Source: Edwardsiella tarda ATCC 15947 = NBRC 105688 (GTDB lineage Bacteria; Pseudomonadota; Gammaproteobacteria; Enterobacterales; Enterobacteriaceae). Taken from it: a stretch of 64,000 nucleotides of DNA. The notes below the pieces were generated by a model. The model was not told the DNA's origin. It did no database searches and worked only from the letters and a program-made list of their open reading frames with translations. The number at the start of each line of letters is the position of its first letter. The first letter of the stretch is position 1. The position numbers were made by a program, and so were the translations under genes. Location of the stretch: contig NZ_CP084506.1 of NCBI RefSeq assembly GCF_003113495.2, forward strand, positions 62,001 to 126,000, in the 5' to 3' direction. Positions 1 through 15,166 of the stretch are shown piece by piece.

Positions 1-593
1 CTTCCGCCGGTGAATTTATGCGCTGTATTGAGCGCGCCGAAACCGGCATTGAGCAGATCCCTGTGCCACTCAACACATTATGGGATCCTGACCATTGTCC
101 CGCCCCGCTTCTGCCCTACCTGGCCTGGGCGCGTTCAGTCAACCGCTGGGATAAAAACTGGCCAGAGCAGACCAAGCGTGCCGTGATCCGCGCCTCCTGG
201 AAAATACATCGGCACAAGGGAACCATCTACGCGCTACGTCAGGCTGTAGAGCCGTTTGGCTATTTACTGAAGGTTAACGAGTGGTGGCAAACAGGCGGGC
301 CGCGAGGCACGTTCAGCCTAGAGATTGGGATACAGGAGCAGGGGATCACCGACGAGACCCGTCGCGAGCTAGAGCGCCTGATTGACGATGCCAAACCACG
401 CAGCCGCCACCTAACCGGGATCGCGCTCTCTCTTCAGTCTACGGGCACCATCACGATCGGTGCTGGCCATTTCTACGGAGACACGCTGACCGTTTACCCT
501 TACCTGCCAGAAGTTATTACAGCGGGTGGGAACAGCAATACGGGCGCTATCGTTCACTTAATTGACACCATGGAGCTTTATCATGGCGAGTAA
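1..593 (+). CDS. I: Phage tail protein I (P2 gpI-like), 5' end outside window
   Basis: This encodes a baseplate protein of a contractile-tail phage. The reading frame is open back to the window edge, so the gene begins upstream; the first internal ATG is at 18. The visible 196 residues match the P2 gpI pattern as I remember it: an N-terminal IEQIPVPLNTLWDP stretch, LPYLAWARSVNRWD, then KRAVIRASWKIHRHKGT. It ends at 593, overlapping the tail-fibre start at 583 by 11 bases, as expected for translationally coupled late genes in the order I-H-G. In P2 this protein lies at the baseplate edge near the fibre attachment point. The family call is confident; the start cannot be seen. Confidence 0.9.
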   Translation, partial: SAGEFMRCIERAETGIEQIPVPLNTLWDPDHCPAPLLPYLAWARSVNRWDKNWPEQTKRAVIRASWKIHRHKGTIYALRQAVEPFGYLLKVNEWWQTGGPRGTFSLEIGIQEQGITDETRRELERLIDDAKPRSRHLTGIALSLQSTGTITIGAGHFYGDTLTVYPYLPEVITAGGNSNTGAIVHLIDTMELYHGE

Positions 594-2352
594 ATATCTT
601 GCGATTCTAACCAATATTGGCGCAGCTAAGCTGGCTAATGCTGCTGCACTCGGTAACAAGTTGGAGATCACCCAGATGGCCATCGGAGATGGCAATGGCA
701 TGCTCCCCACCCCCGATCCGGCGCAAACGGTATTGGTACGTGAAGTTCGGCGCGCGCCAGTTAATTCACTGACCATTGACCCGAAAAACCCCAGCCAGAT
801 TATTGCAGAGCAGGTGCTCCCGGAAGATGTCGGGGGGTGGTGGATCCGTGAAGCAGCGCTGCTGGACAAAGACGGCAATATGATTGCTATCGCCAATTGC
901 CCCGAAACCTATAAGCCACGACTTCAGGAGGGCAGCGGTCGGGTGCAGGTCATTCGTATTGTGCTGATCGTATCCAGTAGCGACGCCATCACGTTGAAGA
1001 TTGATCCCGCTATCGTGCTGGCGACACGCCAGTATGCCGATGAGAAAGCCATCGAGGTACGAGGATATGTTGATAGCCAGCTCCAGGTACACGAACGTTC
1101 GCGCAACCATCCCGACGCGACAACAACAGCCAAAGGCTTTGTGCAACTAAGTAGTGATGACAACAGTGCCGATGAGCGCAAAGCTGCAACGCCCGCAGCT
1201 GTAAAAAAAGTCAGAGATTTGGCGGAGGCCAAAGCTCCGATTAATAGCCCGGCGCTTACGGGTGAACCGACTGCGCCCACACCGCCCAAGACGGATAACA
1301 GCAAGAGGCTTTCAACAACAGCTCACGTTAAAGCCGCTCTTGCCGACTATGCGCCATTAAACAGCCCGGTGCTCACGGGGAGCCCAACCACCCCCACACC
1401 ACCGGCATCAGCTCGAGGGCGTGAGCTTGTTAATGCGGAATTTGTTGCAGGGAAAATTGCTGCACTTATTGGCTCAGCCCCAGGCGTAATGGATACGCTA
1501 CAAGAGATCGCCGCCGCTCTGAACAACAACCCGAATTTTGCCAATGAGATTATCCGGCAACTATCAGGGAAACAGCCACTGAACGCTACCCTGACAGCGC
1601 TCAGCGGAAAAAATGTCGCCCAGCTTCTTGAATACCTTGGTTTGCGAGAAACTATCAATCTGGCAAAGGATGCATGTTCAAAGAGAGTTGTTAAAACGAT
1701 TCGTAATGGTGAATTGTTAGCGAGCTACACGACTCCAGGGTTTTACAGTATTTCTATTGATGATGCGAGCACTGTTGATGATTTCCCCAATGTTCACGGA
1801 ACTCCAATTTATAGCTATGGAGTGATGATAGTTATCAAAAATGATAACACCATTGAACAGTTATTTATTAGTCATAAGGGTCATGTTGCGACAAGACAGA
1901 CCTGGTATGGGGCAGACCGTTATGAGATGTGGGTGGTCCAATATAGCAGCGTCAATAAACCGACGCATCCTGAGTTAGGATTGGGTGATTCAGCTTCAAA
2001 AAACATTGGCTCGGCTACGGGAACTGTAGCGGCAGGGGATGATATCAGGTTTAATCACGCAATCGGGATTTCCCAATCATATCAGGTCATGACATCTTCA
2101 CGAAAAATAGGCATCACGTATATAAATACTCAGACTAGACCGATATTTGTAAAAGTAAAGGCTCGCATTGATGCCAATGCTGAAATATCCATAAATGTAG
2201 ATGGTGTCCAGGCTGCGGGTGGTGACGCGGCAAACGTGACTGGCGCTATTCAATGGGTTTATCCCAGTGCCATAGTGCCACCAGGCTCTTCATATATTGC
2301 TTCAATTGCCAAAGGCTGGGGAGAGCTAATAGAGTGGGTGGAGTTACGATGA
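583..2352 (+). CDS. H: Phage tail fibre protein H, invertible C-terminus
   Basis: This is the receptor-binding tail fibre, 589 aa. The start at 583 (MASKYLAILTNIG) has GGAG at 572-575; an upstream in-frame start at 562 lacks support. The N-terminal 150 residues resemble the P2 gpH baseplate-attachment domain. Two copies of a fibre repeat (NSPALTGEPTAPTPP and [15 protein letters not shown]) lie near residues 225 and 265. A recombinase crossover site falls at about residue 352 (YLGLRETIN). Everything after it is the variable host-recognition part and would be replaced by the minus-strand cassette after inversion. The stop overlaps the next gene as ATGA, suggesting coupled expression with its chaperone. 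The constant part is GC-richer than the variable part, consistent with cassette exchange. Confidence 0.9.
   Translation: MASKYLAILTNIGAAKLANAAALGNKLEITQMAIGDGNGMLPTPDPAQTVLVREVRRAPVNSLTIDPKNPSQIIAEQVLPEDVGGWWIREAALLDKDGNMIAIANCPETYKPRLQEGSGRVQVIRIVLIVSSSDAITLKIDPAIVLATRQYADEKAIEVRGYVDSQLQVHERSRNHPDATTTAKGFVQLSSDDNSADERKAATPAAVKKVRDLAEAKAPINSPALTGEPTAPTPPKTDNSKRLSTTAHVKAALADYAPLNSPVLTGSPTTPTPPASARGRELVNAEFVAGKIAALIGSAPGVMDTLQEIAAALNNNPNFANEIIRQLSGKQPLNATLTALSGKNVAQLLEYLGLRETINLAKDACSKRVVKTIRNGELLASYTTPGFYSISIDDASTVDDFPNVHGTPIYSYGVMIVIKNDNTIEQLFISHKGHVATRQTWYGADRYEMWVVQYSSVNKPTHPELGLGDSASKNIGSATGTVAAGDDIRFNHAIGISQSYQVMTSSRKIGITYINTQTRPIFVKVKARIDANAEISINVDGVQAAGGDAANVTGAIQWVYPSAIVPPGSSYIASIAKGWGELIEWVELR
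1625..1650 (+). other. Left DNA-inversion crossover site (gix/hix/cix type)
   Basis: The core TACCTTGGTTT lies at 1633-1643 with central dinucleotide TT at 1637-1638. It is the inverted partner of the site at 4134-4159, which has AAACCAAGGTTT. Bases 1635-1660 are the exact reverse complement of 4124-4149, a 26-base perfect match. The site lies in the tail-fibre gene so that codons for LGLRETIN are read in the same frame from either cassette. Confidence 0.9.
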
Positions 2353-2699
2353 AATATTTTAAAGACAGCAATAATGTTATATACGCTTATGATGCTGATG
2401 GCTCACAGGATGAATACATCAAAGATGGCCTGATTCATATTTCAGAGGATGAAGCGATGTCCATCGTTAATCCACCACCAACAAAAGAGGATTTAATAAG
2501 AGAGGCGGCGCTTAAAAAAACATCTCTACTAGCTGAAATCGATACAGTCACAAAGTTATGGCAAACTCAATTAGCCCTAAACATTATTCTTGACTCAGAT
2601 AAAGAAAAGCTCAAAGAATGGATGCGCTACGCACAATCTGTGGCAGCGGTTGACCCAGATAGCCTGCCTGAGTCATGGCCGGTAAAACCATCAGTATAA
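2349..2699 (+). CDS. Tail fibre assembly protein (chaperone of current fibre)
   Basis: This 116-aa protein begins at 2349, where ATGA overlaps the fibre stop. The C-terminal half (LLAEIDTVTKLWQTQLALNIILDSDKEKL region, about residues 54-82, then a proline-rich end) matches the Caudovirales tail-fibre assembly family, whose members bind the fibre tip and help it fold or trimerise. It is shorter than the 175-aa partner on the opposite strand and lacks most of that protein's N-terminal domain. Each chaperone is inherited with its own fibre tip inside the invertible segment. Overlapping starts further upstream in the same frame would run into the fibre gene and are not likely. Confidence 0.82.
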   Translation: MKYFKDSNNVIYAYDADGSQDEYIKDGLIHISEDEAMSIVNPPPTKEDLIREAALKKTSLLAEIDTVTKLWQTQLALNIILDSDKEKLKEWMRYAQSVAAVDPDSLPESWPVKPSV

Positions 2700-2705
2700 A
2701 ACCTA

Positions 2706-2725
2706 CGCCCGCAATAATGCGGGCG
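2706..2725. terminator. Hairpin between converging fibre cassettes
   Basis: A perfect 8-bp stem (CGCCCGCA, loop ATAA, TGCGGGCG) lies between the two converging chaperone genes. There is no good T-tract on either side, so it is at best a weak bidirectional terminator. Confidence 0.4.
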
Positions 2726-2730
2726 CTCTG

Positions 2731-3258
2731 TTATTCAGGCATGGATGGGAATATTGCAGGCAATTGCGTTGTATCTACCCGATTGATGCCAACGCGGAAT
2801 TTTTTCCAAGCCTTTAGCCTTGCCTCCTCTTCTGGTGTCGCTACGCCAATATCGACGGCGTCCTGCAATGGGGCAATGGCCTTCGCAGCATCGGCCAGCA
2901 AGCGCTGTTTCTTCTGTTCCGCCTGGACCGTCAGTTCGCCGGTGGTGTACGTCCGAGGGATGATGCTCCCATCAACAAACTGCCATCCACCATCACCATC
3001 CGCTCCATTGGGTAATGAGGCCATTTCGACAACACTTCCACCATCGGGACAAATTGCACTGGCATCTTTATTAATGGCGCAAATCTCCCCATCGGGGAGA
3101 TATTTCACTTTGAAAGTATTTGGCTGAAATTGTGCTATTGCTTGATACCAGTCTCGCCCTAATTCATCATGCCAAAAAAAAGCCTCAAACAGCTCGGCAA
3201 TTTCTTTTTCCTCGCCACTCTCTGGCTCATATCGGGTTAGATTTTTCAAATGTAACAT
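2731..3258 (-). CDS. Tail fibre assembly protein of the silent cassette (P2 gpG-like)
   Basis: This 175-aa protein resembles P2 gpG over its whole length: MLHLKNLTRYEP at the start, FQPNTFKVKYLPDGEICAIN, a middle VVEM and WQFVDGSIIPRTYT segment, and a C-terminal helix-rich part ending in a proline-containing tail. It is the chaperone for the alternative fibre tip encoded just upstream on the same strand; the fibre stop and this start overlap by one base (TAATG). In the present orientation the cassette is not connected to a fibre N-terminus or to an evident promoter, so it is probably unexpressed until the segment inverts. Confidence 0.88.
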   Translation of the reverse strand: MLHLKNLTRYEPESGEEKEIAELFEAFFWHDELGRDWYQAIAQFQPNTFKVKYLPDGEICAINKDASAICPDGGSVVEMASLPNGADGDGGWQFVDGSIIPRTYTTGELTVQAEQKKQRLLADAAKAIAPLQDAVDIGVATPEEEARLKAWKKFRVGINRVDTTQLPAIFPSMPE

Positions 3259-4147
3259 TATAGACCACCTACGTTATACCATGTGCCGTTAATAAATTTT
3301 TGGAGTGCCCGGCGGTAAATTTGGTCTGGGAATTCATCGCGGTTGTCATTTGCCACCCCGGTTATCACATATGGTGGCTGATCATTGTATCCTGGGCCAT
3401 TCCACATCCAGACGCTCTCTTTAGTTGAGAAACGAATATCTTGCACTGTTTTCGTAGCAGGCATTAGCTCTATCCAACCGTTTTCAAATCCGGCACGATC
3501 ACGCGCAGAACGGTAAGCAATGCCACCATTGCGATAATTCACCTTAAATTGTACTGCTGGGCAACTTCCTACCCCCATATTGAAATGAAGGATTAGGCAT
3601 GATGCTCCTGGAACATTCGCCTGGTACACCCCACTAGGAGCATTCCATGCAACGCCTGTATCAGATACAGCAGTATCACCGGTTTTTCCTAATGCAAAAG
3701 CAGGTTGTGGATTGCGTGTGTTATAGTCACGACGCCAGCCTGGCGAATAATCGCTACCGTGATTGATATAGGTGAATTGGGCATTATTAGAAATCGTTGT
3801 CGTCGGTGTGGTAATTCTAACCGTCATTGCTGACCGATTTCCCATAACCTCAATTACACAACCAGCCAACTGAATGTCACCACACCCAGTATCAGTAATT
3901 ACTTTATTGTTGCCATATGACCAGGAGCACTTGCACATCCAGTATGGGTGATCAAATGCAAACTTAGAGGTCAACCATTCAATAAATTGCGCTGTAGTCC
4001 AATTACCTGCTCCAGTGCTTATCGATTCACCGAATGCGCGTCCCGCCCCAATGGCTTGTGTAAATTTATCTTTATTGGGGATGTCTGCACCATTCTGTTC
4101 TTTCTGTAGCGCACCTGCGGCCTGATTGATAGTTTCTCGCAAACCAA
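3258..4147 (-). CDS. Alternative tail-fibre C-terminal cassette (silent phase)
   Basis: This encodes about 295 residues of an alternative fibre tip, beginning at the crossover with LGLRETINQAAGAL. The open frame continues upstream to 4232, but the residues beyond the crossover (about 28) are not fibre-like and come from sequence outside the segment. The cassette has no start of its own; it becomes the fibre end when the segment inverts, and the frame is then preserved because CTT GGT TTG CGA GAA is read identically on both sides. The tip is unlike the currently expressed one, so host range should differ between phases. The stop overlaps the chaperone start. Confidence 0.85.
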
Positions 4148-4159
4148 GGTTTTTGGAAA
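4134..4159 (-). other. Right DNA-inversion crossover site (gix/hix/cix type)
   Basis: The core AAACCAAGGTTT lies at 4141-4152 with the central AA at 4146-4147. It has the dyad and central dinucleotide typical of Hin/Gin/Cin sites. It lies 62 bases before the recombinase start, in inverted orientation to the site at 1625-1650. Confidence 0.92.
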
Positions 4160-4221
4160 AGCGGCAACACATAGCGAAACCTGCAAGAATCCTCCCTCTG
4201 CGAAATAGAGGAGGAGAATTG

Positions 4222-4803
4222 ATGGCCGTCATTGGTTATATCCGCGTATCAACAATCGACCAGAACAGCGATTTACAGCGTAATGCCCTCACAAGCGCAA
4301 ACTGTGACCGCATTTTTGAAGACCGTATGAGTGGGAGAGTTGCCAGCCGCCCCGGTTTGAAACGCGCTTTAAAGTGCGTTAATAGCGGAGACACTCTAGT
4401 CGTGTGGAAACTGGACAGGCTAGGGCGCAGCGTTAAGAACCTGATCGCACTGATATCGGAGTTACATGAACGCGGTGCCCACTTCCGCTCTTTAACAGAC
4501 AGTATTGATACTAGCACTGCCATGGGGCGTTTCTTTTTTCATGTTATGTCGGCACTGGCGGAGATGGAACGTGAGCTGATCATCGAACGAACACTGGCCG
4601 GGTTGGCAGCAGCCAGAGCACAGGGACGCATAGGTGGAAGGCCTAACGCATTAACGCCGCATGAGCGGGAACAGATTGGGCGGCTATTGGCTAAGGGACA
4701 TACTCGCCAGCAGCTGGCCATTATCTACGGGGTGGGGGTATCGACGCTCTACCGGTATTTTCCGGTTAATAGTCAGAGAAAGGATGACACGGTAGGATTG
4801 TAA
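4222..4803 (+). CDS. DNA invertase (Gin/Cin/Hin serine recombinase)
   Basis: This 193-aa serine recombinase inverts the adjacent tail-fibre segment. The start at 4222 (MAVIGYIRVSTIDQN) follows GAGGAG at 4211-4216. Ser10 in RVS is the catalytic nucleophile by alignment with Gin/Hin, Arg8 lies beside it, and LDRLGRSVKNL and the EMERELI helix region follow. The C-terminal 50 residues (GRPNAL, then RQQLAIIYGVGVSTLYRYF) form the helix-turn-helix that binds the site. Length matches the family. Known invertases need Fis bound at an enhancer, usually inside the recombinase gene; I did not locate one by eye. Which family name (gin, cin, pin, hin) applies cannot be decided. Confidence 0.95.
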   Translation: MAVIGYIRVSTIDQNSDLQRNALTSANCDRIFEDRMSGRVASRPGLKRALKCVNSGDTLVVWKLDRLGRSVKNLIALISELHERGAHFRSLTDSIDTSTAMGRFFFHVMSALAEMERELIIERTLAGLAAARAQGRIGGRPNALTPHEREQIGRLLAKGHTRQQLAIIYGVGVSTLYRYFPVNSQRKDDTVGL

Positions 4804-5170
4804 TTCTTTTTCCAATATTGAAGTGCCGCAGTAATACTATTTATTGCACGGCACTTCACTTGCTAAATCAACACTCAAAGATAATCACATTCCAAAATAC
4901 CAATATCATCTTAGTTAGCATCCTAACAAATAATTAGATAAATAATGCACCCTATCTGATTAATACGCAAGCAGAATAAGGTGGGGCGCAAATGAGTTTT
5001 TAAGAGTATTAATTTATCGATGGCTATATGTTTTGTTGAAAATAAAAAAAGCATCAATTATGAGTATTGGCAATTTAATATTTAATATATGCTTCGTATG
5101 TACGAAAGGGGAAATGCTTCCTGTAAACTTGTCAAACTTGCCGCTGCATTGCAGCGGCTTTTTTGCTCCC
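4804..5170. other. Intergenic region between invertase and inverted tail block
   Basis: This 367-base AT-rich stretch holds no open frame I can support. It contains a plus-strand terminator at 5140-5164. It is also one of the two places where the FI-to-U block joins the rest of the prophage in unusual orientation. I searched by eye for a second recombinase site or a TGT-N12-ACA late-activator site and saw none. Confidence 0.5.
5140..5164 (+). terminator. Rho-independent terminator
   Basis: An 8-bp stem GCCGCTGC/GCAGCGGC with loop ATT is followed by TTTTTT. It is oriented for plus-strand transcription and could end an invertase transcript or a small transcript from this region. On the minus strand it lacks a T-tract, so it does not terminate the tail operon. 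Confidence 0.75.
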
Positions 5171-5662
5171 CTACTTAAAAAGCGCATGAAGTGAACGATT
5201 AACATCGTTGTATATAGTGTTAGCCTTGCTTCTTAGATCCGGCAACAAATCACCAATAGATGATACCTGTAGGCGCTCCCGAACATCCTCGTCACAGCGC
5301 TGGAGATCAAGGTTAAACTCAATCTTCCGGGCTTTCCCGTACTGATCCAGTTCAGAACGGGTCAACCTCACCCCTGTGAGCACATACATACCATACACCT
5401 GCCCCACGCCATCAATCAGCGGCCAGGCCCGCCCCGTGTAGGCCTGCGTGGTCAGTATCGTCAGCGACGGTTCACCCCCGGTGATCTCCGGGTACAGCAC
5501 ACCAGACAACGAAATCTGATCTTCACCACTACCGATATACTGCCAACTGGCAGAATGGTTGATACGCTCATTTTTCACATGCCGCCAGGATTTACTCTGC
5601 TGCAACTGCTGATGGGGTAACGTCCTGAGCTCAAAAACAAACATTCCAAAAATCATCATCAT
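5171..5662 (-). CDS. U: Phage tail protein U (P2 gpU-like)
   Basis: This is a tail completion protein, 163 aa, close to P2 gpU (159 aa) in length. MMMIFGMFVFELRTLPHQ at the start and GVLYPEITGG and GRAWPLIDGVGQVYGMYVL in the middle match P2 gpU as I recall it. In P2 it acts at the tail-tube terminus. Three in-frame ATGs begin at 5662, 5659 and 5656; GAGG eight bases before the first favours it. It follows the tape-measure gene by 12 bases on the same strand. In P2 the next gene is D on the same strand; here D is 6 kb away on the other strand. Confidence 0.88.
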   Translation of the reverse strand: MMMIFGMFVFELRTLPHQQLQQSKSWRHVKNERINHSASWQYIGSGEDQISLSGVLYPEITGGEPSLTILTTQAYTGRAWPLIDGVGQVYGMYVLTGVRLTRSELDQYGKARKIEFNLDLQRCDEDVRERLQVSSIGDLLPDLRSKANTIYNDVNRSLHALFK

Positions 5663-5674
5663 GGTGATACCTCA

Positions 5675-8650
5675 TTAGTCTGCATCTCGATAGCTCCCAC
5701 GTCTGGCTCGCGCCTGCTTCTCAAGTTCAACCCTGACCGCCTCACCTACCATTTTCGCCAATGTTTGCGGATTCTGAGTAGTCACACCATGCAAATGCAC
5801 ATGAATATCACCAATTGAAACGCTGTCATTTTGAACCGATGACATGGCCGGGGCCGCAGTTTTCGTTAGCGTGCCAACAGGGGCCAAAGAGGGCGCCGTG
5901 CGAACCTCCGCAACCGCAGGAATACCGGGCAGCGCTGCGCGTCCGCCAGACAGCATTCCGCTTGTTGGCTCCCTCCACTCGCCACGCACCGCTAACGCCC
6001 GTGGTAGGTTTCTGAACACGATATCCCCCGGCCCAATCCGCTTGCGGGTTTCCTTCAGCATGTCGCCGGTATTGTTGGCTATCCGGTTCAGCACGCCATG
6101 ACTGCTCAGCGCTTCAAAACCAGCGCCAGGCACGACAGGGATGGGCTTGGGCGTCTGGGGAGACTCTTTTGGCGCAATGGCATCAACCGTTGCCAGGAGC
6201 GCATTAGCCTTCCCTTTCAGCAAGGACTGCGCCTGCAGTTCCTCTGCCTTTTGCCGTGCTCGCTCAATACCATCGGGGATCATATCCAGTTTTTCCAGGA
6301 TCCAACCCAAAGCATCCATAAGTGCCGTTGCGGGAGTTAATAGTGCCTGAAGCGCTGCACCCACTACGCGACCAAAGGTCTCGCCCGCCGAAGTACATTT
6401 CTCCAGAGTATCCCTACTGGCATTCACAGGTTCAAAGAGATGAGTGAACCACTCCCATACAAACTTGATCGCATCCCCGATGCCAGAAAACAGAGGGGTA
6501 AACGGTTCAAATGCTGCACGAATGGGGGCGATCCCCGCCATCATCCCAGTGATAAACCCATCGAAAAATACCTTGATGGGTTCCCAGTATTTCCAAACCA
6601 GTACACCTGCAGCCACGAACGCCGCTGCCAGCAGGCCTATGGGGCTCAACAGGAGGGAAATGGCGCCGCTCAGCAGAGAAACACCTGTTGTAATCATGCT
6701 CCACAAGGTTGGCAACCCGGTTAACCGCAGCAATAGCGAGCCAATTCCTCGCCCCAGTGACAGTAATGCACCGCCCGGTGAGAGAAACGCACCAACCAGC
6801 AGGCTTCGCAATGCAGGTAATACGCTCCCCAAACGCCCCAGACCACCGGTCACCTGGCGCAGAACAGCCGACCAGCCACGAAGTCCACCTAATGGGCCAC
6901 GGACAACCTTCGCCAGCCGGGAGAAGATTGGGAGTGCCCTCCCCAGACCTTTGGTCCCCATCAGGAGCGAGAAACCCAATTGAAGTTTGGCAACAGGCCC
7001 AATCAATACACCCACTGCCAGTGATAACGCCCCCATGGCTGCCGTCAACGCCAACAGACTGCCACCCAGTACCAGTACCGTTCGTGCAAGAGTGGGGTTG
7101 GCCTTCGTCCAATCGGATACCCGCGTAATCACATCGCTGAGTTGTTGTGTCAGCTTGCGCAACCCACCGTCAATCACCTCTTCAATCTGTATACGCAGCC
7201 CCTCCCAGGCACTGCTGAGGTTATCCAGATCCCCTCCAAGGTTATCGGCCATCACCCGGGCGACCTTTCCAGCCTCACCTCGTGCCGCCTCAAGCTCTTT
7301 CAGTAAAGCCTGCAAGTTCCCTTTGCCGGCAGCATCGACAAGAGTTTGCAATGAAGTGAAGGCCTCTTCCCCCGCAATATCCTTGAAGAAAGAAGCCTGC
7401 GCGGTGTTACTGTATTTCCTGGTTGCGTTATACAGATCGAGCAGTACATCAGTAATCGGCCGCATTTTCCCCTGAGCATCAGCGGCTGATACGCCCAATT
7501 CTTTAAGTGCGGTCCTGGCCTTGTCGGTGGGCGCTGCCAGGCGCCCCAGTGTCGCCCGCAACCCTGTCCCGGCCATGCTTCCACGGATCCCCTGTTGGGC
7601 CAAGATGCCCACCAGGGCGGCCGTCTCTTCAACACTAATCCCAAGTTTCTCTGCACCAACACCGGCATACGTCATCGCCTCACCAATACCACGCAAATCG
7701 GTATTGGTACGCGTGAATGTTGCCGTTAGCACATCGCTGACGCGATTCATTTCCGTTGGATTGAGATTAAATTGCGATAAGACGTTAGAGCCGATATCCG
7801 CACTCTCGCCCAACTCCATACCACCGGCTAGCGCCATGTTTAATACGCCAGGCAATGCAGCTCTAATAGCCTGAGGAGTAAAACCCGCCATAGCCAGAAA
7901 CGCCTGACCGTTGGCGGCATCGCTGGCAGAAAAGGCGGTCTCCGCGCCTAGTTTCTTGGCCTGCTCCCGCAGCGCAGCAAACTGTGGGTTGTCCTTGTCG
8001 ATGCGCGTCAGCGACTGAACGCGCGCCATCTTCTGGTCAAAGCCCACCGCTGGAGCCAGAAAACGCCCTGTCCCATATCCCGCCGCTGTGGCAGCGCCTA
8101 TCGCCATGGCTCCACGACCACGTAATCGCCCAGCCAACTGCTGCGCCCGCTCATAACGCTGCCGAGCACGAGTCACTGCAGTCAGTATCTGTTGCTCACG
8201 CGCCAGTTGCCGGTTGTATTGTTCGGTACGCCTGATGGCGCTCTCGATTGTGCGATCACCGCCAGCCAGGGATATCCCGTGCCGGGTCATGGCTCGTGTC
8301 GCCTCTCGTAACCGCTCTTTCTCTCGCGCCCTGACTTCATTCAACCGCTCAAGACGGGTGGCAAGAGATGCCATCAGGGTCTGCTGATTTTCGGTCAGGA
8401 TGGCGCCACTACGCTGCACAGCCTGAAGGCCACTCAGCTCACGTTGCGCTTTCTGGATCTGCGTATTGGTTTTTGCAAATGCATCCCGCAATCGGGAAAA
8501 GGATTTCGCCTGGGGTACCAGGTTTTTGATATTAGCCTGAGTCCGCTTCAGGGACTCGGCCAGGGCGCCCGCCGAACGGCGGGCTGTCATAGCAGGTCGG
8601 GTAAGTTTGTCGATCGCGCTAAAGGCGACACGAATATCAAGGGTTGTCAT
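5675..8650 (-). CDS. T: Phage tail tape-measure protein T (P2 gpT-like)
   Basis: This 991-aa protein sets tail length. The start at 8650 (MTTLDIRVAFSAIDKL) is the one giving the P2-like N-terminus and overlaps the end of E' by 14 bases; the frame is open further upstream to 8692. Residues 1-190 are helical and probably coiled coil. A TP901-type tape-measure core with ALRGIGEAMTYAGVGAEKLG and GILAQQGIRGSMAG style motifs lies at about 280-400. A hydrophobic stretch with several possible membrane-spanning segments spans about 540-730. The C-terminus has SIGDIHVHLHGV, seen in this family. It is longer than P2 gpT (about 815 aa), implying a longer tail. Confidence 0.92.
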   Translation of the reverse strand: MTTLDIRVAFSAIDKLTRPAMTARRSAGALAESLKRTQANIKNLVPQAKSFSRLRDAFAKTNTQIQKAQRELSGLQAVQRSGAILTENQQTLMASLATRLERLNEVRAREKERLREATRAMTRHGISLAGGDRTIESAIRRTEQYNRQLAREQQILTAVTRARQRYERAQQLAGRLRGRGAMAIGAATAAGYGTGRFLAPAVGFDQKMARVQSLTRIDKDNPQFAALREQAKKLGAETAFSASDAANGQAFLAMAGFTPQAIRAALPGVLNMALAGGMELGESADIGSNVLSQFNLNPTEMNRVSDVLTATFTRTNTDLRGIGEAMTYAGVGAEKLGISVEETAALVGILAQQGIRGSMAGTGLRATLGRLAAPTDKARTALKELGVSAADAQGKMRPITDVLLDLYNATRKYSNTAQASFFKDIAGEEAFTSLQTLVDAAGKGNLQALLKELEAARGEAGKVARVMADNLGGDLDNLSSAWEGLRIQIEEVIDGGLRKLTQQLSDVITRVSDWTKANPTLARTVLVLGGSLLALTAAMGALSLAVGVLIGPVAKLQLGFSLLMGTKGLGRALPIFSRLAKVVRGPLGGLRGWSAVLRQVTGGLGRLGSVLPALRSLLVGAFLSPGGALLSLGRGIGSLLLRLTGLPTLWSMITTGVSLLSGAISLLLSPIGLLAAAFVAAGVLVWKYWEPIKVFFDGFITGMMAGIAPIRAAFEPFTPLFSGIGDAIKFVWEWFTHLFEPVNASRDTLEKCTSAGETFGRVVGAALQALLTPATALMDALGWILEKLDMIPDGIERARQKAEELQAQSLLKGKANALLATVDAIAPKESPQTPKPIPVVPGAGFEALSSHGVLNRIANNTGDMLKETRKRIGPGDIVFRNLPRALAVRGEWREPTSGMLSGGRAALPGIPAVAEVRTAPSLAPVGTLTKTAAPAMSSVQNDSVSIGDIHVHLHGVTTQNPQTLAKMVGEAVRVELEKQARARRGSYRDAD

Positions 8651-8822
8651 CGCGGGCACCGCTTCGTTGCGCCGCCCGCTCACGCCAGGCAATCATGTCA
8701 TCCAGCGTCATCGTGAAGATATCAGCAGGCGACCAGTTAAATACCGTGGCAATATCAGCAACCATGTCCTCGACATGGTCAAACTGCGCTATGGCAATCA
8801 GGCTTCCATCGCCGCCTTTTTC
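8637..8822 (-). CDS. E': E' extension, read by -1 frameshift from gene E
   Basis: Upstream T relatives encode a tail-assembly chaperone pair in which some ribosomes slip back one base near the end of E. Here gene E reads GCG AAA AAG near its 3' end (AAAAAG at 8816-8821 on the complement), and the -1 frame after it is open for about 60 codons. Those codons include IAQFDHVEDM, FNWSPADIF and MTLDDMIAWRERAAQR, the usual E' pattern of an aromatic-Trp helix and a MxLxDxxxW motif. The stop at 8637-8639 overlaps the T start. No start codon or ribosome site of its own is convincing, so translation as a fusion with E is the best reading. Confidence 0.78.
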   Translation of the reverse strand, partial: EKGGDGSLIAIAQFDHVEDMVADIATVFNWSPADIFTMTLDDMIAWRERAAQRSGARDDNP

Positions 8823-9214
8823 GCATCGCCAAAGGGCGTTGGCGCTAAAAAATCAGCAGCCATCACACATAGCGCCATAAAGTCCCCGGTAGCTAGTTCA
8901 TCCAACTCCTGTTTATTCAGGCTTGGTGACAGTACACGGGATAGCCAGATTTTCATGGCATCCGCTTTCATGCTAGCCAGGTCGGCAACAGACAGGCCAC
9001 GCAGGGATCCTGACTGGCCAGCCACTGCGCTAATTTCAACATGTGTGATACACCCCTCTTTCCGTTCAATCGGTTTTGATAGTGTCAACTCTCGCACCAA
9101 ACGGACAGGTGAGGCATCAGGCAGGCTATCCCGCACCTTCTCCATCGGCATATCGGCAGTAGACAATCTGCTCTCTACGGTGGCGTTCTCTGCATTCATG
9201 GTTTGCTCTTTCAT
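8798..9214 (-). CDS. E: Phage tail assembly chaperone E (P2 gpE-like)
   Basis: This 138-aa protein corresponds to P2 gpE, which with its frameshifted form E-E' helps assemble the tail around the tape measure. The C-terminal half (RGLSVADLASMKADAM, then LDELATGDFMALCVMAADFL) is the recognisable part. GGAG lies about 11 bases upstream of the ATG at 9214; an alternative ATG is five codons later. It lies between FII and T on the same strand, the P2 order. The N-terminus is longer than in P2 and poorly conserved, so the start is the least certain part. Confidence 0.82.
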   Translation of the reverse strand: MKEQTMNAENATVESRLSTADMPMEKVRDSLPDASPVRLVRELTLSKPIERKEGCITHVEISAVAGQSGSLRGLSVADLASMKADAMKIWLSRVLSPSLNKQELDELATGDFMALCVMAADFLAPTPFGDAKKAAMEA

Positions 9215-9262
9215 GGCGATAATACTCCGGGCGGCATAGTAGGCCGCCCCTATTGATAATGG

Positions 9263-9778
9263 TTAGCCCAGACCCAGCGCGGAACGGATGCGATCCGGCA
9301 CAATGTCCTTGCCATCTTTCCGATAGATGAAGTTCAGCAAGTCAAACTCAAACAGCGGCTTATCATCGATGGAAAGCTTGTAATACGTATTCTTAAGACT
9401 GAAGGAGTGCGAGGTTGTCTCGCCCTGCTTTGTCTCCCCCATATCGATCTCGGTGATGCGGCCGCGCATTTCAACCTCACATGCCTGGCTCCCACCTTCA
9501 TCGTCATACAGCCAGCCGACGAAACGTAATGCGGTGTGACTCATATCGCCGCCATACTCCAGCAGCGCCTCTCTCACCACGCCACCCAAGACCATGGTGG
9601 CATCCAATGCCCCATCGTCTAGGCCAAGATCAATGGCTACCGCTCCCATCATGCCACCTCCCCGGAAGTTCTCTGTTTTGCGGCTCAGCTTGGGTAACGT
9701 GACCGACGTAACCTTGCCGATTTCGTTTTTACCGTTCACAAAGCAGGTGAACAGTCGGACTACATGTGGAATAGCCAT
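9263..9778 (-). CDS. FII: Phage major tail tube protein FII
   Basis: This 171-aa protein is the tail tube subunit, with the same length as P2 gpFII. The N-terminal MAIPHVVRLFTCFVNGKNEIG and the later FRGGGMMGAVAIDLGLDDGALDATM region are characteristic, as is the C-terminal IDDKPLFEFDLLNFIYRKDGKD block. Its start at 9778 directly abuts the FI stop at 9779, consistent with coupled expression of sheath and tube. Nothing about it looks damaged. Confidence 0.93.
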   Translation of the reverse strand: MAIPHVVRLFTCFVNGKNEIGKVTSVTLPKLSRKTENFRGGGMMGAVAIDLGLDDGALDATMVLGGVVREALLEYGGDMSHTALRFVGWLYDDEGGSQACEVEMRGRITEIDMGETKQGETTSHSFSLKNTYYKLSIDDKPLFEFDLLNFIYRKDGKDIVPDRIRSALGLG

Positions 9779-10965
9779 TTATGCCCCTCCCAGTGATGCG
9801 AACGCCGGCCCAATAAACTCGTCCGTGAAGGTCTGGGTGAACTCCAGATCTTCCAACGGCGGCACCGGCGTGTACTTGTACTGGATGCGTACTCGCCCCT
9901 GGCGGATCTCGGTCGTCGGGTTCTCCACAATATCGAACCAGCAGCTGGCACCCAGCAGGCGCCCGGCGGTGACAAGCTGGTTTAGTTTGGCACGTAACCC
10001 ACTCAAGACATCTTTGACGTTGGTGGGGGTTAGCGGTTCATCAATCGCTTCAAACTGAGCCTCTGCCACGGTATCCGCCAGAACCTGACTGGTACGGGTA
10101 TAAACCTCAAAAATATAGGCGTTAGTATCCGTGCTGCGGTTACCCCAAAAGCGGAAGCCGTTACGCTTGATGAGCGTGGTGATCTCTTTGTTGTTCAGGT
10201 TATTGGCATCACTATCGTCAGCCTGAAGCGCCCAAAAACCTGCTTGGAGATCCCCAGTACATTTTTCACGGGCACATTGGACAGTGATTTGTGCCACCCT
10301 TGCTCATGGTCAATCAGCGCGCGCAGACCGCAGGCATAGGCTGGCGCCGGGAACACTTCGTTTTGACCGGATGCGGGGTTATAGGCAATGAAGTCCGGCC
10401 AGATGAGCATGAGCTCGCGGTAGGCGAATTTTGCGCGGTAGGCAATCGCCTCCGCCATCGTGTTACAGCCATGGCAGCTGGCATACACAAATGCCCGCAG
10501 CTTGCCGGCGATCACACATAGCGATGAGGTAACCGCCTCTGAGTCCAGATCCGGCGCCGCCAGGATGCGAGGTCGATAACCGATATGCTCATCCTGCTCG
10601 GCAACGAGAAACGCGTACATTCCGGTATAGCTGCCATCGGACTCAGTACCACCCACGACTAGTTGATCCTGGGTTTTACTCCCATCCTCGCTTTTTGCAG
10701 CTGGGACGCGCACCACGATAACCTTGGTGCTGGCCTGATCGGCAATGGCCTTCAGTGACTTATACAGCGAACCAGTCTTGCCAGCTTTACCCAGCAGCGG
10801 CTCAATACGTGTCAGCAAAACAGGCTTGTTCAGGGGGAAGGTTTCCGCGTCGGCATCATCTGCCACCGCGACCAATCCGACAACACTGCTATCAATATCA
10901 TTGTACGGGTTGGCAAGATCGGTTTTTTCATGGACGCGGGCACCGTGAAAACGGCTTTCACTCAT
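9779..10965 (-). pseudogene. FI: Phage tail sheath protein FI, frameshifted
   Basis: The contractile sheath gene is split into two frames. The N-terminal part runs from ATG at 10965 (MSESRFHGARVHEK, then DADAETFPLNKPVLLT) to GWHKSLSNVPVKNVLGIS, then goes out of frame. The C-terminal part resumes with WALQADDSDANNLNNKEIT and RNGFRFWGN and ends at 9779. The break falls in a run of five T on the coding strand (10234-10238); six would restore ...KQVFWALQ. Total length would then match P2 FI (about 396 aa). Without an intact sheath the tail could not contract. The run-length change could be a real mutation or a sequencing error. It does not form a canonical slippery heptamer, so programmed frameshifting is unlikely. 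Confidence 0.88.
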
Positions 10966-11129
10966 ATGATCCACCATTGGGTTAATGGGTTAATATCATG
11001 TCGGAGTCCCATCTTCACCAACCCGCCACGGCAATTCACGCGCTTTAGGCTCTCCCCTTCATCCCACAACAAAAACAAGATGTTAGCCCTCGCGCGCGCA
11101 TGGGAGCATAGCCGCAGGAGATCATAACC
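10966..11129. other. Divergent gap between sheath operon and D
   Basis: In P2 this junction does not exist, because FI follows the fibre region and D follows U. The 164-base gap separates minus-strand FI from plus-strand D and so is the right join of the inverted block. I saw no TGT-N12-ACA Ogr-type site in it by eye and no fibre-type crossover site. Confidence 0.4.
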
Positions 11130-12254
11130 ATGCCGAACACCACAAAACCATCAGCCCTAGATATCAACAGCAACCGAGACACGTTATGTGACCCCATCAA
11201 GTCGCCAGACTTTCGTATCATCATGGAGGGCAAGCCAATTGAGCTGCTCAACCGACGCTGTATGAATCTGTCAATGACCGATAATCGGGGCTTTGAAGCC
11301 GATCAGCTCACCCTAACACTGGACGATGCTGACGGCATGTTGACTCTACCGCCACGTGGGGCAGTTCTAACCCTAATGCTCGGATGGATGGGAGAGCCGC
11401 TCGTTAACAAAGGGCGGTTTATCATCGATGAGATTTCGCATGAAGGCCCGCCCGATACTTTGAGCATTACCGCCCGTAGCGCAGATTTCCGAGAGGAGTT
11501 CAATGTGAAGCGAGAAGTCTCCTGGCATGATGTCACCGTCGAACGCGTCGTATCCGCCATCGCCCACCGCTACCAGCTGCAACCCTGCATCAGCGAAATG
11601 TTGATGAATATCGAGATCGATCACGCTGACCAGACAGAAGAAAGTGATATGTCGTTCCTTACTCGCATGGCCGATATGCTGGGCGCCATTGCTACCGTCA
11701 AGAACGCTAGGCTGCTGTTCATCCTACCCGGCGGAGGTGTAACCGCTGATGGTAAGGCCCTGCCATCCTTCCACCTGCAACGCAGTGATGGTGACGGCCA
11801 TCGATTTCGTATTGCCGATAGACAGGCTTACACAGGGGTGCGCGCCTACTGGCTGGATCTGAACTTTGGTAAGAAACGGAAAGTCAGTGTCAAGCGGCGC
11901 ACCACCAAGAAGCGAGAGAAAAGCAGTAGCCGAGACGGCGACTACATGACCGGGGCAGAGGGTAATGTGTATGTGCTGCGTAAAACCTATCGGAACGAAG
12001 AGGCTGCCAGGCGCGCTGCTGCAGCAAAGTGGCAGCAACTCCAACGCGGCGCCGCCGAGTTCAGCATCACCCTGGCGCGTGGGCGCGCCGATCTCTACCC
12101 CGAAATGCACGGTCAGGTAGCAGGGTTTAAGCCAACGATAGATAATCAGGATTGGATTATTGCTAAAGCTGAACACGTAATTGATGGCAATGGTTTTACT
12201 ACGCACCTGGATCTGGAGGCCAGGATACCAGAATGGATTGCGACGCCAGAATAA
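11130..12254 (+). CDS. D: Phage late control / tail protein D (P2 gpD-like)
   Basis: This 374-aa protein is the tail hub (baseplate centre) protein, historically called late control protein D. RNLSMTDNRGFEADQLTLTL-type sequence at residues 45-65, FIIDEISHEGPPDTLSITARSADF, ESDMSFLTRMAD, and the C-terminal RGAAEFSITLARGRADLYPE and NGFTTHLDLEARI blocks match P2 gpD. The start at 11130 follows CAGGAG at 11115-11120. It lies 45 bases before ogr, as in P2, but is separated from U, its normal upstream partner, by the inverted block. Confidence 0.93.
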   Translation: MPNTTKPSALDINSNRDTLCDPIKSPDFRIIMEGKPIELLNRRCMNLSMTDNRGFEADQLTLTLDDADGMLTLPPRGAVLTLMLGWMGEPLVNKGRFIIDEISHEGPPDTLSITARSADFREEFNVKREVSWHDVTVERVVSAIAHRYQLQPCISEMLMNIEIDHADQTEESDMSFLTRMADMLGAIATVKNARLLFILPGGGVTADGKALPSFHLQRSDGDGHRFRIADRQAYTGVRAYWLDLNFGKKRKVSVKRRTTKKREKSSSRDGDYMTGAEGNVYVLRKTYRNEEAARRAAAAKWQQLQRGAAEFSITLARGRADLYPEMHGQVAGFKPTIDNQDWIIAKAEHVIDGNGFTTHLDLEARIPEWIATPE

Positions 12255-12299
12255 CGACACCGTAAACTATGGGTATTGCCATACCATCAGGAGCCGCCC

Positions 12300-12551
12300 A
12301 TGTTCCATTGTCCTCAATGCGGAGCATCCTCTCGCAAACGCACCAGTCGCTACATGAATGAAGAGCGCACTATCAAAAAGACCTACTACCAGTGCAACAA
12401 CCTGACCTGTGGTGCATGCTTTTACTCGATCGAAAACGTGATTGGTCTGGTTGGTCGCAACAAGAAAGCAGCAAAAGAGATCCCTTGGGAAGATTTCCCA
12501 GCATCACATCGAGGTCGGGATCAACTCCCCTTAGAGCTGGATAAAGCCTGA
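12300..12551 (+). CDS. ogr: Ogr/Delta-type late gene activator
   Basis: This 83-aa zinc-finger protein activates P2-family late promoters by contacting RNA polymerase. MFHCPQCGASS has the first CxxC pair and YQCNNLTCGACF the second Cys set, the pattern of Ogr/Delta. The start at 12300 has AGGAG at 12289-12293. It is the last gene of the prophage, just before the attachment site, as in P2. The C-terminal 25 residues (EDFPASHRGRDQLPLELDKA) are hydrophilic and variable in the family. Confidence 0.92.
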   Translation: MFHCPQCGASSRKRTSRYMNEERTIKKTYYQCNNLTCGACFYSIENVIGLVGRNKKAAKEIPWEDFPASHRGRDQLPLELDKA

Positions 12552-12560
12552 GGAAAGAAA

Positions 12561-12586
12561 GCTCACGGTTCCCCGTGAGCTTTTTT
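12561..12586 (+). terminator. Terminator after ogr
   Basis: An 8-bp stem GCTCACGG/CCGTGAGC with loop TTCC is followed by TTTTTT. It ends the D-ogr transcript ten bases after the ogr stop and should limit read-through into the attachment site. Confidence 0.9.
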
Positions 12587-12669
12587 ATTTTTATCGAAGC
12601 GTAGTCAAAATGTAGACGAGTATTAGAATAAATCCTTTTATTCCATAATATTACCTTCAGGATTTCTTC

Positions 12670-12710
12670 ACCATCCCTGTCTTCCCCCACATGATGTGGG
12701 GGTTTTTTTT
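12670..12710 (+). ncRNA. cpxQ: 3' part of CpxQ sRNA with terminator; probable prophage attR
   Basis: The segment reads ACCATCCCTGTCTTCCCCCA followed by CATGATGTGGGGG and eight T. As I recall it, this matches the 3' two-thirds of E. coli CpxQ, the Hfq-bound RNA cut from the cpxP 3' end in the Cpx envelope-stress response, with one loop change. Its stem CCCCCACA/TGTGGGGG and T-tract form the terminator. cpxP normally precedes fieF; here prophage DNA lies immediately left, so this is best read as the bacterial right half of the insertion site. The 5' part of the RNA is absent here and would lie at the other prophage end, outside the window. Confidence 0.78.
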
Positions 12711-13062
12711 ATCTCTTGTTTATCCTTCTTCCCTCATCGATCGCTGAGGTATTGATCATCGTTCGTCACCATGGTGTTCATGCGAGCGTCACGAGATCGT
12801 GAACGCCCCTCGTCAGCATCAATATAATCACTTTCTTGTATATTAATTGTTTATTATACAAAGTTACATTTTATGATATATTGTAATATTAATCGTATGA
12901 TGAATTTATCTTTAATCTTACTTTATGGGAAAGTAGACGAGTAACACGTGTTTGTCGGTTTTGAGAGTATCTAGCAGACGTGGCTATTTGTTGGCCGGTA
13001 TGTGGGGTGGCTATTATCTCTACCGAGATGGCATTGATGTGTTACATGTCTAAGTTTAGTCA
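12711..13062. other. AT-rich intergenic region after the attachment site
   Basis: About 350 bases with runs of A/T and no frame I can support. The low GC continues through the following Mig-14-like gene and suggests an acquired segment between the phage attachment site and fieF. Confidence 0.5.
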
Positions 13063-13933
13063 ATGCTTATTAAAAAACTACTCGGTTGGCAGCAATGTGA
13101 TTTTGCTAGCTATAAGATGGTAGCGCAACGCTATGGGTATAGTGCGGAATCTGCGCCAGACTATATTGAATTCATGATTAACTATGGGGCGAAATTTAAT
13201 TTTATTGCCTATTATCATCATGGCGAGATAGTTGCGGCAGCTTGTATTGATAATGGATGGTTGGTTAATGATTTCAAAAATAATAATAAATCTATTGTCG
13301 GCTTACCGCTGCCGGTATCGGGAATTGTGTTACCGATGCGACGTGATGTATTTTGTTGTGCACCCTTTAAGGCGCGTTGCTTGAGTGGTGATTACCCCTA
13401 CTCATTGAATATTACTAAAAAAATTTTCTAAGCGTCTGGAAGCGATAGCAAAAAAGATCCCCGATTTCTCTAAAAAAACACAGCAGACTCGACGTCGTGA
13501 AATAAAAAAATTTCAGCAATCTGGTGGTGCTTTTATCGATATTAGCACTATCTCTGCTGATGTACTGCTAGATAGTTATGATGCGCTACTTAAAAAGCGT
13601 TGGGGACAAGGTGTTACAAACTTGGCGATGAATCAGGCGTTCTTTCGGCGATTTCAGCACTGTTTTTATGGCGATATCGCTACGTTAAATGGGCAAATCA
13701 TCGGCATCCAACTATTGCTTAAAACAGAGTCCGTCAGAGGTATCTTTGTCGATTTTATCAACATTGGTTACGATGTTACCTGCGAGCACCCCCTCGGCAC
13801 CATGTTGATGTGGCGTAATATTGAGCGCGTCGCCGAATTAGGTGCCGATGTGAAATACTCCTATGGTTTTATGTCGGGTGAGTACAAGAAACGCTGGTGC
13901 GTTCCTCGTCTCCTATCCCGAGTCATCTTTTAA
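13063..13933 (+). pseudogene. Mig-14-like protein, frameshifted
   Basis: A protein of about 289 aa is broken by one frameshift. The first part (MLIKKLLGWQQCDFASYK to LSGDYPYSLNITKK) stops at 13431. The frame resumes as FSKRLEAIAKKIPDF, RRREIKKFQQSGGAFIDIS, LLKKRWG, and ends EYKKRWC plus 10 residues at 13933. The break is a run of seven A at 13413-13419; six would restore the frame. The overall pattern resembles Salmonella Mig-14, an inner-membrane-associated FemAB/acetyltransferase-like protein needed for resistance to host cationic peptides. That family call rests on the RRRE, KKRWG and EYKKRWC motifs and is moderate. The gene is AT-rich against its neighbours, suggesting transfer. Confidence 0.6.
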
Positions 13934-14263
13934 GACAAAAATATTGCTATGAAGCGGCTGGTGTGGCGTCTCCATGATTTTTCCTCTGGATAGCCATACC
14001 CGCTTGCCTGTTGATCGGTATAGTTCCGTCCACGACTTTCTCACCGGCTTTTCGCTTGTTATTTTTACATCGACATGGCTGAGCCTCTCCATTCAATTGG
14101 GGTGACCCATTTCATAGCGCTGAACACCCGTGTTGTCGGGTCGGTCGCGTGACGGGGCTGGCGCAGTGTGGGCCAAATCTTGGGTTTTCGATGAGCTGCC
14201 TTTTTTGCTGTGCAATTCGCTATACTGGTCGGCTAATCGCAAATACTATTTTTGGGTGGATCT
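13934..14263. other. Intergenic region before fieF
   Basis: About 330 bases without a supported gene. Composition returns to the GC-rich core here. A TATACT at 14220-14225, about 40 bases before fieF, may be the -10 of its promoter; the -35 is not clear. Confidence 0.35.
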
Positions 14264-15166
14264 ATGCATCAGCAATATGCACGACTGGTCAAGGTTGCGG
14301 CATTAGCCGCGACAGTGACAGCCACAATCCTGCTGATTTTTAAAATATTGGCCTGGTGGTACACCGGATCGGTCAGTCTGCTGGCCTCGTTGGTGGACTC
14401 ACTGGTGGATATCGCGGCCTCGTTGACTAACCTATTGGTGATCCGTTACTCCCTGCAGCCAGCCGACGAAGACCATACCTTTGGTCACGGTAAGGCGGAG
14501 TCGTTGGCGGCGTTGGCACAGAGCATGTTTATCAGCGGTTCTGCACTGTTCCTGTTCCTAACGGGCTTCCAACACTTGATTAAGCCGGCGCCGTTGCACG
14601 ATCCCGGTGTCGGGATCTGGGTAACGGCTTTCGCCTTGATCAGCACCATGTTGCTGGTGACCTTTCAGCGCTGGGTGGTGCGTAAGACTCAGAGTCAGGC
14701 GGTGCGGGCGGATATGCTGCATTACCAGTCTGATGTGCTGATGAATGGGGCGATCCTGATTTCGTTGGGGCTGAGTTGGTATGGTGTGACCTGGGCCGAT
14801 GCCATATTTGCGTTGGGAATTGGGGTCTATATTCTCTATAGCGCCTTGCGTATGGGCTATGAGGCGGTGCAGTCGTTGCTTGACCGAGCATTGAGTGAAG
14901 AGGAGCGTAGACTGATTGTCTCGTTGATCCATCGTCATCGTGACGTATTGGGGTTGCATGATCTGCGTACCCGTCAGTCTGGGCCGACCCGTTTTATTCA
15001 GTTACATATTGAGATGGACGATGCGCTGCCGCTGGTAGAAGCTCATGCTATTGCCGATCGGGTTGAGCATGATCTATTGCAACACTTTCCCGGTGCAGAT
15101 GTGATCATTCACCAAGATCCGACCTCGGTGGTGCCCCTTGAACAAAAAGGGCGATGGGAGTGTTAA
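14264..15166 (+). CDS. fieF: Ferrous-iron/zinc efflux pump FieF (cation diffusion facilitator)
   Basis: This inner-membrane proton antiporter exports Fe2+ and Zn2+. The 300-aa protein aligns end to end with E. coli FieF/YiiP. The transport-site residues are visible: D45 and D49 in DSLVD, and H153 and D157 in HYQSD. Six membrane segments occupy residues 1-210 and a cytoplasmic ferredoxin-like domain follows with DLRTRQSG and DVIIHQDP. The start at 14264 follows GGTGGA; a TTG four codons upstream is less likely. It is followed by pfkA, as in E. coli, while cpxP, its usual left neighbour, has been displaced by the prophage and the Mig-14-like gene. Confidence 0.96.

Follow-up and report, generated by a model that had tools for sequence, protein, structure and literature searches.

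The end of a P2-like prophage in the genome of Edwardsiella tarda ATCC 15947 appears to coincide with the 3' part of the small RNA CpxQ, which raises the question of which DNA, host or phage, supplies each part of the small RNA gene after integration. The stretch analyzed, referred to below as the window, is 64,000 nt long and corresponds to positions 62001-126000 of contig NZ_CP084506.1 (G000:C1:62001-126000) in a genome of 3.80 Mb and 4 contigs. The best explanation of the evidence given below is that a WPhi-type integrase joined the phage to a box within CpxQ, so that attL holds a hybrid CpxQ with a phage terminator; we put the probability of this at roughly 93%.

A perfect 45-bp direct repeat was found at both limits of a 35.2-kb P2-like prophage, which occupies G000:C1:39502-74713 when both core copies are included and measures 35,167 bp when only one is. 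The attL core (G000:C1:39502-39546) starts 39 nt past the cpxP stop codon and is letter-identical to the attR core (window 12669-12713, CACCATCCCTGTCTTCCCCCACATGATGTGGGGGTTTTTTTTATC), and the flanks of the two copies differ on either side of the block. When the genome was searched with a 41-nt core pattern, allowing up to 3 mismatches, the pattern occurred twice in the 3.80 Mb and its reversed control not at all, and a chance repeat is thus not a serious option. At the attL end, cpxP (Pfam LTXXQ, L009:1984-2463) is followed by the core and then by an adjoining tyrosine integrase gene on the opposite strand (L009:2655-3635, Pfam Int_N and Phage_integrase); at the attR end, the core is preceded by gene D and ogr (Pfam Phage_GPD and Ogr_Delta). 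These ends define a P2-like prophage whose attL lies at cpxP and whose attR lies in the window. The first-pass annotation of this DNA had advised reading the other prophage end for the repeat and for int, and both were present there; a copy of the core does exist at that end, and cpxP adjoins the prophage instead of lying at a distance from it. The features of the window (window coordinates, strand) are as follows.

1-12713, strand not given: part of the P2-like prophage within the window, from the two core positions, with D and ogr assigned by Pfam
11130-12254, + strand: gene D (tail baseplate hub), Pfam Phage_GPD
12300-12551, + strand: ogr (late gene activator), Pfam Ogr_Delta on ORF 12276-12551, with the ATG at 12300 picked by eye
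12555-12586, + strand: terminator-like hairpin past ogr and upstream of attR, from the terminator scan
12601-12619, + strand: putative integrase arm sites of the P arm (GTAGTCAA, TGTAGACGA), by resemblance to annotated P2 arm sites
12627-12645, + strand: putative IHF site adjoining the core, from its similarity to the IHF site annotated in P2
12669-12713, + strand: attR core (CpxQ nt 17-58 followed by ATC), same sequence as at attL
12684-12710, + strand: terminator of the CpxQ 3' half at attR (hairpin 12684-12702, T-run 12703-12710), from the terminator scan
13063-13933, + strand: broken mig-14-like stretch between attR and fieF, Pfam Mig-14 on ORF 13622-13933
14264-15166, + strand: fieF, Pfam Cation_efflux and ZT_dimer on ORF 14252-15166, with the start taken from the MHQQYA reading of congeners

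Two further regions of the prophage were noted. The gene at window 4126-4803 was 91.5-94% identical to phage records, one of them annotated as a DNA invertase, and this invertase-like gene and the fibre-like ORFs at 2253-4232 (both strands) probably form an invertible tail-fibre segment. Outside the window, L009:8451-8655 (G000:C1:45450-45654) matched Rfam isrK, C4 antisense RNA and a1/b1 C4 targets above the gathering score; in other phages, RNAs of the isrK, C4 and a1/b1 types are associated with the control of antirepressors.

The RefSeq annotation of MG1655, in which CpxQ is 58 nt long and lies between cpxP and fieF, was used as the CpxQ reference. In four reports, CpxQ is described as a highly conserved, Cpx-induced and Hfq-binding RNA cut from the cpxP mRNA by RNase E, its 5' end being the seed for nhaB and cfa (PMC9438474, PMC4817254, PMC6755755, PMC9753035), and its terminator as required for Hfq (PMC9753035). 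Because the repeat consists of the 3' 42 nt of CpxQ followed by ATC, CpxQ is whole at attL, where it is placed after cpxP and is identical to that of MG1655 at 57 of 58 nt. The attR copy matches CpxQ nt 17-58 with the same single difference, a loop base (41 of 42 bases identical), and sits behind phage DNA, past the terminator-like hairpin at 12555-12586. The first-pass annotation was therefore right that the prophage end matches the 3' part of CpxQ with its terminator and that cpxP, at the other end, stays linked to a CpxQ sequence. Its placing of fieF beside the prophage end held in part: fieF does come after attR, but about 1.55 kb away (the gap between cpxQ and fieF in MG1655 is 81 bp), owing to the broken mig-14-like stretch in between, of which ORF 13063-13431 had no Pfam match. 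At the gathering score, Rfam returned no CpxQ match in L199 or L009, though both contain CpxQ. The order of arm sites, IHF site, core and arm sites at the junction is as annotated in P2, with the arm and IHF sites assigned by resemblance.

Twelve phage records were fetched of the 60 listed among the 837 that match the integrase. The core with its terminator was found beside int in 7/7 fetched records whose integrase shows 65.8% identity or more (WPhi twice, phiT5282H, SEN5, ESSI2, R18C and SW3; 6 distinct phages), which bears out, in the attP of related phages, the earlier supposition that attP carries a copy of the core. The CpxQ core was beside int in 0/5 fetched records with an integrase at most 64.3% identical; two of these extend just ~100 bases past int and so were not counted as contrary, and in the other three, arm and IHF-like motifs surround a different core. 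Genome contigs were also scanned by integrase, and the best 80 of 462 relatives were kept. In 15 of these best 80 loci the core adjoined int (12 recognised by alignment score; L054, L062 and L103 by motif), with the box CACCATCCCTGTCTT intact in 14 of the 15 (L054, from Trabulsiella, is off by one base) and cpxP found within the locus in 13 (not in L062 or L131). In a tree of 90 integrases, from which L099 and L131 were left out as too short, all 20 CpxQ-core integrases fell in one group of 22 (support 100/98), the integrase of the window prophage belonged to the WPhi group, and the P2 integrase stood elsewhere, outside the CpxQ-site group. The other two group members were L053, which has other repeats and no CpxQ core beside int, and ENT4; the CpxQ-core label requires 3 changes on the tree. 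The attP of ENT4 (L018) has the usual arms and an IHF-like site around a different core, despite its CpxQ-group integrase, possibly through a change of integration target.

CpxQ was present in 5371 of 5426 complete E. coli genomes. A query running from the WPhi int to the core was at least 80% covered in 787 of the 5426, and a query running from the P arm through the core to fieF in 785, each query being counted on its own; for a cpxP-core-arm query, which itself contains cpxP, all 60 among the matches listed were at cpxP. In LD27-1 the order cpxP-attL-int was found, together with D-ogr-attR-fieF-pfkA, spanning the origin of the record. Its attL is MG1655 on the left and WPhi on the right, with the loop A of WPhi, and its attR is WPhi on the left and MG1655 on the right, with loop C; this base-exact exchange in the attB/attP/attL/attR set places the crossover at the loop or ahead of it. 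The attP of the related phages and the LD27-1 set together present an RNA 3' end that is carried in attP and restores the gene at attL. The CpxQ loop itself is apparently polymorphic in E. coli, with 896 of 5371 genomes matching the C form at 99% or more and 4467 at 95-99%.

It might be proposed that a duplicated or rearranged cpxP-fieF intergenic region, and not site-specific integration, gave rise to the repeat, and the two cpxP-linked copies 1.1 kb apart in genome G209 indicate that duplications near the site occur. The presence of the same core in attP, beside int of sequenced phages, contradicts duplication as the source of the repeat, and the 787 and 785 E. coli genomes that match the two WPhi-type junction queries also speak against it; we consider its chances negligible.

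To assign the two halves of CpxQ under site-specific integration, attL was compared with the outer second copy in 22 loci, comprising the window and 12 and 9 loci from two genome sets. From the first set (16 genomes), G392, G393 and G406 were dropped for lack of a pair, as was G407 (Kosakonia oryziphila), whose second core copy adjoins another int and hence is the inner junction of a tandem pair. From the second set (14 genomes), G310 and G361 were dropped as duplicates of genomes already used, G209 for having two cpxP-linked copies and no second end, and G012 and G163 because their second match fell in unrelated sequence. For the arrays of G298 and Photorhabdus bodei, inner copies were left uncounted. 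Copies were fetched with a 14-nt pattern (ACCATCCCTGTCTT), and the box is therefore common to all of them by construction. The shortest block common to attL and the second copy was 17 nt. The terminator hairpins of attL and the outer attR differed in 10/22 loci, in 8 of which (Acerihabitans, Kosakonia oryzendophytica, Photorhabdus bodei, Rosenbergiella, Serratia proteamaculans, G298, G086 and G375) at least one base pair was altered on both sides of the stem; G024 differed by one outer pair and Morganella by a loop base. The hairpins were scored identical in 12/22 loci, the window included, so that halves are not assignable by hairpin at these; among the 12, the T-run differed in Pseudocitrobacter and G338, and G341 differed right before the stem. 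fieF lay within ~1.5 kb of the second copy in 12/22 loci, the window among them, the ends were on separate draft contigs in 7/22, and in G338 they were on the two strands of a single contig.

Since the attL hairpin continues into the phage arm, it is that of the phage, and the exchange is placed in or next to the box. The attL of Pseudocitrobacter equals the attP of ESSI2 rightward of the box, odd T-run included, and the attR hairpin was found again in congeners of Acerihabitans (2/3), G024 (3/4) and G298 (1/3), the prophage status of these congeners being unchecked. Judged by sequence, the phage is the supplier of the CpxQ terminator and the host of the 5' part. The 16 phage-side hairpin forms had a mean folding energy of -12.2 kcal/mol, compared with an average of -7.0 for arm swaps between forms, and 30 of 240 swaps were as stable as the weakest native phage-side hairpin; the phage-side terminator copy may also be useful to the phage itself, so that these energies are no proof of selection for CpxQ. 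Tandem prophages were observed at the CpxQ site in G298, Photorhabdus bodei (L141, L155, L162, L165, L179, L191) and Kosakonia oryziphila (L139, L153), with up to three different terminator hairpins within one array.

In the proposed mechanism, the WPhi-type tyrosine integrase of a temperate, P2-like phage would act at the conserved box CACCATCCCTGTCTT, midway along the CpxQ gene, the attP of the phage being made up of the box and then the phage's own intrinsic terminator. At attL, the host would contribute the promoter, cpxP and at least nt 1-16 of the hybrid CpxQ, the 5' seed included, and the phage the terminator and U-tract, and the former host terminator would be shifted to attR, on the fieF side. 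The conserved box is reportedly a second seed region of CpxQ (Chao and Vogel 2016). We infer that the integrase made this very junction, that the hybrid CpxQ is made and working, and that the two terminator copies separate the cpxP, prophage and fieF transcripts.

A change in Cpx control, which the first-pass annotation held possible, is not predicted by the sequence of the restored CpxQ, as this equals that of MG1655 save for one loop base, and the same base is found in the prophage-free relative G232. Integration could still alter Cpx control if the phage terminator shifted the amount or Hfq loading of CpxQ, for which the terminator is reported to be necessary (PMC9753035), or if a transcribed attR half competed with it. 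Some phage ends do look weaker, with one stem pair fewer in SEN5 and Kosakonia oryziphila and an interrupted T-run in ESSI2, Pseudocitrobacter and G338, but the attL hairpin in the genome of the window belongs to the strong 8-bp type, which prophage-free G232 has as well. Likewise, a promoter-like match at 12602-12629 ends 40 nt ahead of the attR core, but it scores 9/12, 2 such matches were found against 1.6 expected, and a terminator-like hairpin stands between ogr and attR. An effect of integration on Cpx control is considered very improbable.

The relatives of the host bear on the history of the site. Congeners G137, G300 and G360 each have one box copy with an GCCATGATGGC-type hairpin and fieF close behind. 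G232, whose CpxP is 97.4% identical, has a single box copy with a phage-type hairpin and ATC, no int within the 5 kb examined, and, as in the window, a mig-14-like stretch between hairpin and fieF (80% DNA identity over window 13056-13941); no such stretch was reported in G137, G300 or G360 by comparison of the fieF region. From these alignments, the G232 terminator is likely the scar of an earlier insertion, and the plainest reading is that an older insertion decayed, leaving its terminator and some cargo, and that the present prophage re-entered later. Alternatively, the hairpin of G232 may have arisen by plain mutation, or the mig-14-like stretch may have come from another source. Prophage decay at the CpxQ site is not rare, as only 2.1-4.6 kb lie between the two core copies in four loci (G086, G154, G160 and G310). 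A T-rich stretch before fieF, at window 14200-14207, could be aligned by eye with the congeners and was considered as a possible remnant of the host terminator. Two candidate origins for the DNA between attR and fieF were rejected: cargo of a known phage, as the 103-aa piece of the mig-14-like remnant had no match among 50,697 phage records, and the acetyltransferase beside the attP of ESSI2, which showed no similarity to the stretch.

The first-pass annotation named the cpxP-fieF site as one used by P2-like phages, and this is already in print: the accessible text of two reports gives it as a P2-type integration site, occupied by Escherichia phage WPhi (Peduovirus), Wphi1 of E. coli W and the prophage P1 of an O157:H7 strain, and names the cpxP-fieF gap, not CpxQ (PMC3032704, PMC7609406). 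No publication tying the site to CpxQ was found among the top-ranked matches in the open-licence literature. The WPhi core is said to have been published in 1999. WPhi and the window prophage share the site, core, arm layout and integrase group; their integrases are 66% identical, and the arm repeat is TGTAGACAA in the window prophage and TGTGGACA in WPhi. No phage record covered 80% of window 1-12700, the best pieces being the invertase gene and the attR arm.

The attP core of P2 likewise consists of the 3' end of an sRNA, terminator included: read in reverse complement, the annotated 27-nt core is identical to the last 27 nt of CyaR, Rfam finds CyaR at this core, and the PR-X remnant in MG1655 is annotated as starting inside cyaR. 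P2 differs from the window prophage in that its integrase is on another tree branch and in that CyaR is a separately annotated sRNA gene, whereas CpxQ, according to the literature excerpts cited above, is cut from the cpxP mRNA. No sRNA was matched at the cores of Chuche and P884B11, so that the use of sRNA ends may not be general. Small RNA genes are given as 17% of Salmonella prophage sites in one report (PMC5502288, citing Bobay 2013). With prophages in tRNA, tmRNA and sRNA genes generally, the phage likewise carries and restores the 3' end of the gene; CpxQ departs from this pattern in that the end put back frequently has another hairpin, with the join at a box within the RNA. That P2-type phages insert at this site is not new; what the present analysis adds is the CpxQ reading, together with the hybrid sRNA and the probable scar.

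These results suggest a reason for the location of a common P2-type site, which two junction queries place in ~14.5% of complete E. coli genomes: the integrase would use the conserved box of a stress-response sRNA and pay it back with a terminator. The loop base provides a natural single-base marker of the supplier of the sRNA tail. As a tentative extension, to which we give slightly less than even odds, P2-like phages would be donors of sRNA 3' halves, exchanging the CpxQ terminator for their own time and again through lysogeny and leaving it as the lasting host terminator once the prophage decays, part of the CpxQ terminator diversity of the Enterobacterales would be phage-made, and some donated ends, with a shorter stem or an interrupted U-tract, may set the CpxQ level in lysogens. 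The findings indicate that prophages are able to edit host sRNA genes without breaking them, and with P2 at CyaR and WPhi at CpxQ, a preference of P2-like integrases for sRNA terminators is now directly testable.
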